Shown: positions 17,420-19,832 of the stretch, piece by piece | Position numbering within the stretch: position 1 is the first letter of the stretch | Layout of the letters: each line of letters starts with the position of its first letter | Assembly (NCBI GenBank): GCA_012519655.1 | Contig: JAAYPS010000042.1 | Coordinates: 1-60,542 of the forward strand | Length of the DNA: 60,542 nucleotides | Source: Clostridiaceae bacterium | GTDB lineage: Bacteria; Bacillota; Clostridia; DSM-8532 | Reading direction: 5' to 3' | Notes under the pieces: generated by a model | Told to the model about the DNA's origin: nothing | Database searches by the model: none | What the model saw: only the letters and a program-made list of their open reading frames with translations | Made by a program: the position numbers and the translations under genes

Positions 17420-17854
17420 ATGTGGGAAATAATTACTAACAATGAATTAGAGACAATAGAGCTGGGTGAAAAGATAGCAGGGCGACTTAACAAAGGAGAC
17501 ATTCTTGCTCTGTCAGGTGATTTAGGTACGGGAAAAACTGCTTTTGTAAAGGGAATAGCAAAAGGATTTGGTATTAATGATTATATTACAAGTCCTACTT
17601 TTACACTAGTTCATAGCTATAAAGGAACGGAATTTGAGCTTCACCATTTTGATGTTTATCGTATTAATGATGAAGAAGAGCTATTTGAAATAGGTTTTGA
17701 AGAGTATTTATATGAAGATGATATTTGTGTGATTGAGTGGGCAGACCTAATAAAAAATTTAATACCAAACCACTCAATATGGATTTATTTTGAACGTTTA
17801 GAAGGTGGTTCTGATCAACGAAGGATTACCATAAAGGGGCTGGAGGAAAAATGA
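17420..17854 (+). CDS. tsaE: tRNA threonylcarbamoyladenosine biosynthesis ATPase TsaE
   Basis: Small P-loop ATPase needed, with TsaB and TsaD, to make the t6A37 modification of ANN-decoding tRNAs. It has 144 residues. Walker A GDLGTGKT is at 33-40, and the conserved SPTFTLVHSY and IEWADLI segments are present. It overlaps tsaB by 4 bases (ATGA), so it is coupled to its partner. tsaD is not in the window. Confidence 0.95.
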   Translation: MWEIITNNELETIELGEKIAGRLNKGDILALSGDLGTGKTAFVKGIAKGFGINDYITSPTFTLVHSYKGTEFELHHFDVYRINDEEELFEIGFEEYLYEDDICVIEWADLIKNLIPNHSIWIYFERLEGGSDQRRITIKGLEEK

Positions 17855-18564
17855 AAATACTTGCGTTGGATACCTCTGCAGGAACAGCAACTGCTGCGAT
17901 TTCGACAAATGGTTTTTTGACAGGCGAAATATCCATCCGAAATGGGAGGACTCATTCACAAAAAGTTATTCCAATGATTGAATCGTTACTGGAGATGGTT
18001 GATTGTAAACCTGAGGATATAGATTTATTTTCAGTGGCAAACGGGCCAGGCTCTTTTACCGGCTTGCGAATTGGAGTTGTCACAATTAAGGCCATGGCAT
18101 ACGCTTTAAAAAAACCTGTATGTGAAGTATCAACCCTTATGGCGCTAGCGTGTACAGTTGATGAACAGGATGGCTTGGTATGTCCCATCATGGATGCGAG
18201 AAACCGCCAAGTATACTCAGGTGTATATAGAATCCAGCAGGATTCGGTAACGTCTCTATTAAATGATGGGGGTCTGGCGATAGAAGAATTAATAGATACG
18301 CTTAAGACTTATAACATGCCGGTACATTTTGTGGGTGATGCAGTGCCAATATATAAAGATTATATAATTGGACAGGGGATTGATGCACGTTTTGCATCGG
18401 ATGACATTTTTACACATCGAGCAGCTACAGTAGCATATCTTGCCTGGCGCATGCAGCAAGATGGGAAAATAACAGATGCTTTTCATGCAGCTCCAAATTA
18501 TCATAGAAAATCACAGGCTGAAAGAATGAAGGACCTGGCGGAGACTACACCTAATGGAAAATAA
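17851..18564 (+). CDS. tsaB: tRNA threonylcarbamoyladenosine biosynthesis protein TsaB
   Basis: Non-catalytic ASKHA-fold partner of TsaD in t6A synthesis. N-terminal phosphate-loop-like MKILALDTSAG and the conserved ANGPGSFTGLRIG are visible. The protein has 237 residues. It overlaps tsaE by 4 bases and rimI by 11 bases, so the three are one operon. Confidence 0.95.
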   Translation: MKILALDTSAGTATAAISTNGFLTGEISIRNGRTHSQKVIPMIESLLEMVDCKPEDIDLFSVANGPGSFTGLRIGVVTIKAMAYALKKPVCEVSTLMALACTVDEQDGLVCPIMDARNRQVYSGVYRIQQDSVTSLLNDGGLAIEELIDTLKTYNMPVHFVGDAVPIYKDYIIGQGIDARFASDDIFTHRAATVAYLAWRMQQDGKITDAFHAAPNYHRKSQAERMKDLAETTPNGK

Positions 18565-19000
18565 GATTATAATCAGAAGTATGGATAGCCAGGACATATT
18601 TAGTGTGTTGGAAGTGGAGAAACGCTCTTTTACTATTCCCTGGTCCGAGGAGATGTTCAGGATTGAGCTTCAAAACCCGAATTGTTTATACTTTGTAGCT
18701 GAAATATCAAACGTTATAGTTGGTTATGTGGGCTTGTGGATTATAGTAGATGAAGGACACATATCCAGTATTGCAGTTGATCCTTCATATAGAAGGTTGA
18801 AAATTGGAAGAGCTTTGATGCAGAACATATTTGATATAGCACAAAAAAAGCAACTGAAAGGTTTGACGCTGGAAGTAAGAGCAAGTAACATAGGAGCAAT
18901 CGAACTTTATAAGAGTTTTGGATTTAAAACTGAAGGTCGAAGAAAAGCATATTATAGTGATAATCAAGAAGATGCGCTTATTATGTGGCACCACTTATAA
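18554..19000 (+). CDS. rimI: Ribosomal protein S18-alanine N-acetyltransferase RimI
   Basis: GNAT-fold acetyltransferase of 148 residues; the acetyl-CoA motif is at about 79-88 (YRRLKIGRAL, of the RxxGxG/A type), followed by LEVRASNIGAIELYKSFGF. The tsaE-tsaB-rimI order is standard in Firmicutes. Expected substrate is the N-terminus of S18, but enzymes of this group can have broader targets. Confidence 0.92.
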   Translation: MENKIIIRSMDSQDIFSVLEVEKRSFTIPWSEEMFRIELQNPNCLYFVAEISNVIVGYVGLWIIVDEGHISSIAVDPSYRRLKIGRALMQNIFDIAQKKQLKGLTLEVRASNIGAIELYKSFGFKTEGRRKAYYSDNQEDALIMWHHL

Positions 19001-19024: not shown

Positions 19025-19104
19025 AACACAGAGGGACGGTTCTTTTGTGTTGTTTTTAAATTAAGCATTACGATAAGAGCACAAAAGAACCGTCCCTCTG
19101 TGTT
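19025..19104. repeat. Perfect 25-bp inverted repeat (dispersed repeat element)
   Basis: The arms at 19025-19049 and 19080-19104 are perfect reverse complements over 25 bases around a 30-base loop. The arm contains CACAGAGGGACGGTTCTTTT. Short ACACAGAG tandems flank it on the left, and AACTCTGTGTT on the right. The arm sequence recurs at 21-45. Such GGGACGGTTCT hairpins occur in many Firmicutes genomes to my knowledge. Here it separates rimI from the ribosomal promoter and could end rimI transcripts. Confidence 0.85.
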
Positions 19105-19136: not shown

Positions 19137-19165
19137 TTGTAATGGGAAAAGAATTATAGTATAAT
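19137..19165 (+). promoter_or_regulatory. Promoter of the S10 ribosomal operon
   Basis: TTGTAA (19137-19142) and TATAAT (19160-19165) with a 17-bp spacer. It is the only good promoter in front of rpsJ and would give a leader of about 350 bases. Confidence 0.75.
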
Positions 19166-19324
19166 GTTGCCTGTTGTGACATGGCATACGATGAAGTTGG
19201 AGATGGCTGGTTATAAACTGGGGAACTTCAATGGAGAATGTCCGATTCAATGAAACCGGGCGACAAGTCACTGTACATCTTGCATTGTGCATATTTTTAT
19301 GCGTGAAGTATGTTTGCTACAGAG

Positions 19325-19379
19325 CCTAGGTTTGGCAAGTTAAGATCAGAGCGATCTACTTGTTTTGTCCTGGGTTTTT
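19325..19379 (+). promoter_or_regulatory. Terminator-like hairpin in the S10 leader (attenuator candidate)
   Basis: CCTAGG (19325-19330) pairs with CCTGGG (19369-19374). Inside, CAAGT pairs with ACTTG and GATC with GATC, around a short loop. GGGTTTTTA follows, so the structure has the form of an intrinsic terminator about 140 bases before rpsJ. An upstream leader segment of about 150 bases could hold an antiterminator. This is inferred from pairing by eye. Confidence 0.55.
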
Positions 19380-19520
19380 AATATCAGCACTCGCGACACA
19401 CCCGGCAGAGTGTACAGAGAAAAACCACTTGTTGCGTCATTACAAAAAGTGTTGTTGCACAAACAATAAAATGTTTTTAACAGAAAATTATGTTGAAGGC
19501 ATGGATTAGGAGGCATATGT

Positions 19521-19832
19521 ATGGCGAACAAACAAAAAATTCGAATTCGATTAAAAGCCTTTGATCATCAGGTTTTGGATCAATCGGCAGAAAAAATTGT
19601 TGAAACTGCAAAAAGGACTGGCGCAAAAGTTTCAGGTCCTGTGCCGTTACCAACAAGAAAAGAAGTTATTACTATTTTACGTGCTCCACACAAGTATAAG
19701 GATGCGCGTGAGCAATTTGAAATGAGAACTCATAAAAGGTTAATTGACATTCTTGTTCCGACACCAAAGACCGTTGATGCTTTAATGAGAATGGATCTTC
19801 CAGCTGGTGTGGACATTGAAATTAAGCTGTAA
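19521..19832 (+). CDS. rpsJ: 30S ribosomal protein S10
   Basis: First gene of the S10-spc-alpha cluster. The 103 residues are typical; conserved [18 protein letters not shown] and [19 protein letters not shown] are present. S10 sits in the head of the 30S subunit and is the NusE factor of transcription antitermination. A ribosome site AGGAGG precedes the ATG. Confidence 0.98.

Follow-up and report, generated by a model that had tools for sequence, protein, structure and literature searches.

Gene order and promoter of the S10 cluster

The S10 ribosomal-protein cluster lies on the forward strand of the window, by which we mean the whole stretch of 60,542 nucleotides that was analysed. It begins with rpsJ (S10, 19521-19832), followed in this order by rplC (19891), rplD (20536, start uncertain), rplW (21177), and rplB (21614). 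Alignment of relatives and folding place the ribosome-binding site (RBS) of rpsJ, AGGAGG, at 19508-19513. On the same strand, a promoter scan and the comparison with relatives identified a sigma-70-type promoter of the cluster at 19137-19165 (TTGTAA-17-TATAAT). Promoter-like matches were seen 11 times against 4.7 expected, so a promoter match alone is weak evidence, and a -10 box of the TATAAT kind is present in all 25 aligned relatives. Judged by the position of the -10 box, transcription would start near 19172, giving a leader of approximately 349 nt up to the rpsJ start at 19521. This agrees with the original prediction, made from the window's sequence, of a promoter at this position and an S10 leader of about 350 bases.

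Directly 5' of the cluster, the genes tsaE, tsaB, and rimI occupy 17420-19000, with rimI ending at 19000. The gap between rimI and the S10 promoter contains an inverted repeat (19025-19104) with 30-base arms that are 93% complementary and separated by 20 bases. It is a dispersed repeat: its core, CAGAGGGACGGTTCTTTTGTG, has 120 copies in the genome at no more than two mismatches (65 forward and 55 reverse, compared to none for the reversed control), which are often paired and often close to contig ends, and the repeat probably breaks the assembly. A further copy is found at the start of the contig on the minus strand (21-41, G000:C116:21-41). Hits of plant microRNA families to 19025-19104 (Rfam MIR2606 and MIR5048) were rejected as chance hairpin matches far below the cut-off.

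The S10-Clostridia element

The 5' half of the leader, on the same strand as the operon, matches the Rfam covariance model RF03136, "S10-Clostridia ribosomal protein leader", at 19183-19266 over all 81 model positions, comprising the hairpins P1 and P2. With 34.9 bits (E 8.9e-4), the match falls 0.2 bits short of the curators' cut-off of 35.1 bits; it is the single match in its own genome (E 2.2e-5), and three other genomes of the genus (G001, G002, and G003) score over the cut-off. Among the relatives, 70 of 99 have a match with an E-value of at most 0.01 (36 over the cut-off), and across the class the model matches 252 of 391 genomes (173 over the cut-off). The P2 hairpin is conserved and its strands co-vary, as only 4 of 10,000 permutations paired equally well. 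Judging from this match, the leader probably belongs to the S10-Clostridia kind already described. The Firmicutes S10 leader was reportedly first described by Yao and colleagues in 2007, and Li and colleagues reportedly worked on the S10 cluster of B. subtilis in 1997. The original prediction knew of no clostridial S10 leader of this shape, which was mistaken: besides the RF03136 match to the 5' half, Eckert & Weinberg 2020 (PMC7247131) report the Firmicutes S10 r-leader from Clostridia in numerous examples, which they do not discuss further.

Leaders for comparison came from a set of 119 sequences, the window included, 116 of which have rpsJ downstream. Regular expressions failed to place the 5' element in 14 and the 3' element in 11 of these, and the 25 were left out, so that 91 anchored leaders were kept; reading by eye shows variant forms of both elements in many of those left out, L009, L073, and L095 among them. 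One genome, G028, contains two rpsJ loci whose S10 leaders differ (one of them is L008, on G028:C35), the S10 proteins being 68% and 93% identical to that of the window; its second locus is either a second copy or assembly contamination.

The terminator-like hairpin

Downstream of the Rfam element, folding, co-variation, and the comparison with relatives identify a terminator-like hairpin, the putative attenuator, at 19321-19378 on the forward strand (AGAGCCTAGG...CCTGGGTTTT, then TAATATC), with a T-run at 19375-19379. Its predicted stability is -25 kcal/mol (z -3.97), and none of 200 dinucleotide shuffles folds equally well. The window contains 1148 runs of at least four T on both strands, 224 of them preceded by a hairpin, and among these 224 the hairpin at 19321-19378 ranks first in stability. 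A simple terminator scan restricted to loops of 3-8 bases did not list it, owing to that loop limit. The terminator-like hairpin of the original prediction is thus borne out, except that a single long stem with internal loops was found instead of the multi-stem structure it had described.

In the alignment of 25 leaders (the window plus genus, family, order, and class relatives), the stem base and the T-run are conserved, and the loop and upper stem vary freely. The family sample was anchored on rpsJ and is therefore unbiased by the RNA model; it comprises 30 loci in 30 of 32 genomes, and all 30 have the hairpin with a T-run directly after it. The regular expression recognized 27 of them, having missed L150 and L154 and returned a false stretch for L136, and these three were read by eye. 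The locus L152 is incomplete at the 5' element because it is cut by the contig end. In the wider set, which was not dereplicated, a hairpin with T-run precedes the 3' element in 62 of the 91 anchored leaders, compared to 15.3 expected from 20 shuffles per leader, and is absent in 29. Among 27 dereplicated leaders the arms co-vary, with a native score of -13.06 against -8.36 (sd 0.51) for permuted arms, none of 10,000 permutations reaching the native value. Since the hairpin is conserved in relatives and its arms pair far better natively than when permuted, it is a selected structure; the stems, whose lack of conservation in related genomes had been named beforehand as grounds for dropping the prediction, are conserved. 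The T-run is short (five T followed by AA in the window, and only three T in some relatives, e.g. L003 and L024), making the strength of the hairpin as a terminator uncertain.

A long-range helix encloses the hairpin

All 25 aligned leaders share a 3' element downstream of the hairpin, ACAC.CGG...GTGTACAG...CTTGTTG, represented in the window by GACACACCCGG at 19395-19405, shortly upstream of the P4 3' strand. The last part of this element pairs with bases directly following P2, forming P4 (CTGTACA at 19271-19277 with TGTACAG at 19411-19417) and P3 (GCGACAAG at 19260-19267 with CTTGTTGC at 19428-19435), all strands lying on the forward strand. In 30 dereplicated leaders (including L004, which like L117 was anchored at a wrong 5' position), the native P3/P4 pairing averages -17.5 kcal/mol, compared to -13.65 kcal/mol (sd 0.53) for permuted strands and -15.78 kcal/mol for the best of 10,000 permutations. 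No permutation in 10,000 equalled the native pairing for P3 alone or for P4 alone; the two control pairings, neither of them significant, were equalled by 682 and 5201 of 10,000. Several pair types occur at nearly every position of P3/P4. It was also considered whether the P2 3' strand pairs with CCCGG of the 3' element in a pseudoknot; with 9250 of 10,000 permutations equally good and the native pairing no better, this was rejected.

P3 and P4 are therefore predicted to join the Rfam element to the conserved 3' element, with the terminator hairpin between the halves. This half is absent from the Rfam model, as the model stops where P3 begins. The P3 5' strand overlaps the P2 3' strand, and P3 competes with P2 because it uses bases that the model gives to outer P2. 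What the comparison adds to the 81-position model is thus an extended P3/P4 architecture, as predicted from co-variation, and a putative lineage-specific terminator.

Leaders without the terminator

The 29 anchored leaders that do not have the terminator hairpin retain both the 5' and the 3' element, and P3/P4 is kept in most. A hairpin of at least six pairs between P4 and the RBS is present in 20 of these 29, which include many close relatives, compared to 6.6 expected, and in 29 of the 62 leaders with the terminator, compared to 15.4 expected. In many of the terminator-less leaders (L013, L023, L027, and similar), the 5' strand of the RBS-adjacent hairpin overlaps the P3 3' strand, an example of such a hairpin being UCGUACUU...AAGUGCGA, four bases before GGAG. 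This distribution suggests that one sensing fold may be connected to different outputs by lineage. We tentatively propose, at slightly less than even confidence, a two-part RNA in which the long helix would compete with P2 and, in some lineages, with the RBS hairpin, the terminator and the translation start being exchangeable outputs. If true, some lineages would have a terminator inserted into the long helix's loop, and others would exert control at translation start.

A candidate antiterminator and the proposed mechanism

A candidate antiterminator strand, AAACCGGGC, is located at 19253-19261 on the forward strand and is complementary to the 5' arm of the hairpin, GCCTAGGTTT (19324-19333), through nine pairs with one bulge. 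When this pairing was imposed on the window leader, it was the minimum-free-energy (MFE) structure or lay within 1.5 kcal/mol of it in transcripts ending at 19335-19372, and the terminator was favored over the antiterminator by 3.4-5.1 kcal/mol at ends 19375-19379. This fold switch between 19372 and 19375 matches the expected behavior of an antiterminator that must give way. Co-variation of the two strands was not detected in the 27 dereplicated leaders (native -9.64, permuted -9.71, p 0.60), the antiterminator strand finds its best partner in the terminator arm in only 7 of these 27, and the pairing is part of the MFE structure in 28 of 62 truncated leaders. On energetic grounds, the antiterminator formed by 19253-19261 and 19324-19333 is plausible.

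The S10 cluster is probably under autogenous control through this ribosomal-protein leader, which would be of the S10-Clostridia kind and contain a transcription attenuator; the mechanism is most likely attenuation through a ribosomal protein. With little free ribosomal protein available, AAACCGGGC would leave P2 and pair with the 5' arm of the hairpin, allowing the polymerase to pass; when the protein is bound and holds P1/P2, the arm would be free, the terminator would form near 19379, and the whole cluster would be turned down. Because the transcript reaches the T-run before P3/P4 can form, the choice of termination would rest on the 5' part. P3/P4 would form only after read-through, too late to determine whether that transcript is terminated; their role is probably to complete the fold that binds the protein, or else lies in translation or stability. 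Of the attenuation of the ribosomal cluster suggested by the original prediction, the structured leader with a conserved attenuator-like hairpin stands, and its novelty in Clostridia does not (RF03136).

The putative ligand is probably a protein encoded by the cluster itself. The prediction had named L4 as a candidate, and nothing in the sequence analysis points to it. A crude test for rRNA mimicry gave no excess, with three and one 9-base words shared with the 23S and 16S rRNA, respectively, of the same-genus genome G001, compared to 3.7 and 1.6 expected.

Weighing of other readings

The same features may be read differently. On one such reading, P3/P4 enclose the hairpin as a structural arm of the fold that binds the protein, it does not work as a terminator, and control would act on translation or mRNA stability. 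Conservation of the basal stem GCCC.GG...CC.GGG and of the following TTTTATATG beyond the needs of a terminator would fit such an arm, as would the relatives with only three T (e.g. L003 and L024) and the leaders without the hairpin, which keep the rest of the fold and have the RBS-near hairpin in 20 of 29 cases against 6.6 expected. We nevertheless consider this unlikely, given that no other hairpin before a T-run in the window is as stable as 19321-19378, that the T-run follows it directly in all 30 family loci, and that variation is free in its loop and upper stem but spares the stem base and T-run. It is highly improbable that an AT-rich intergenic stretch folds into these structures by chance: the whole-leader fold is only modestly stable compared to shuffles (z -1.91), but the co-variation tests refute this explanation, and the conservation and the Rfam match also argue against it.

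By analogy with E. coli, where L4 is the regulator of the S10 operon (the mechanism is summarised in PMC10931766), L4 might instead bind the leader and, together with NusA, stabilize a polymerase paused at the attenuator hairpin, with no need for an antiterminator. The absence of antiterminator co-variation is in line with this, and the operon and its layout are the same, with a structured element upstream of the attenuator hairpin. Against it stands the reportedly narrow distribution of the E. coli L4 site, which according to the same source is not conserved even throughout the gamma-proteobacteria (PMC10931766), and a proteomics study of C. difficile states that its data lend no support to the E. 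coli L4 model in that species (PMC3933415). We see only a small chance that this analogy holds, and the preferred reading remains a leader whose terminator is chosen over an alternative fold through a ribosomal protein. The S10-spc-alpha cluster accounts for a large share of the ribosome. With defined strands and a defined stop site, the RNA in its extended fold gives the search for the ribosomal protein that senses it something concrete to work on.

Comparison with known ribosomal-protein leaders

Like the L4-regulated S10 leader of E. coli, the leader described here is long and structured and has an attenuator hairpin ahead of the first S10-operon gene. Unlike that leader, it belongs to a Firmicutes RNA family, and the E. 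coli L4 site is reported to be confined to part of the gamma-proteobacteria (PMC10931766). In the L20 and L10 leaders of B. subtilis, the ribosomal protein favors the terminator over an alternative fold (PMC10931766). These transcription-attenuation leaders resemble the present one in their Gram-positive host and in the choice between terminator and alternative fold that we propose for it; they belong to other operons and have other RNA folds. The S10-Clostridia element itself is also a close counterpart. The 81-position model of RF03136 ends at GACAA and includes neither P3/P4 nor the 3' element nor the terminator hairpin, whereas the P1 and P2 hairpins, the core GGAG-AUGUCC-GAUUC...GGGCGACAA, the position upstream of rpsJ, and the occurrence in Clostridia are common to both.
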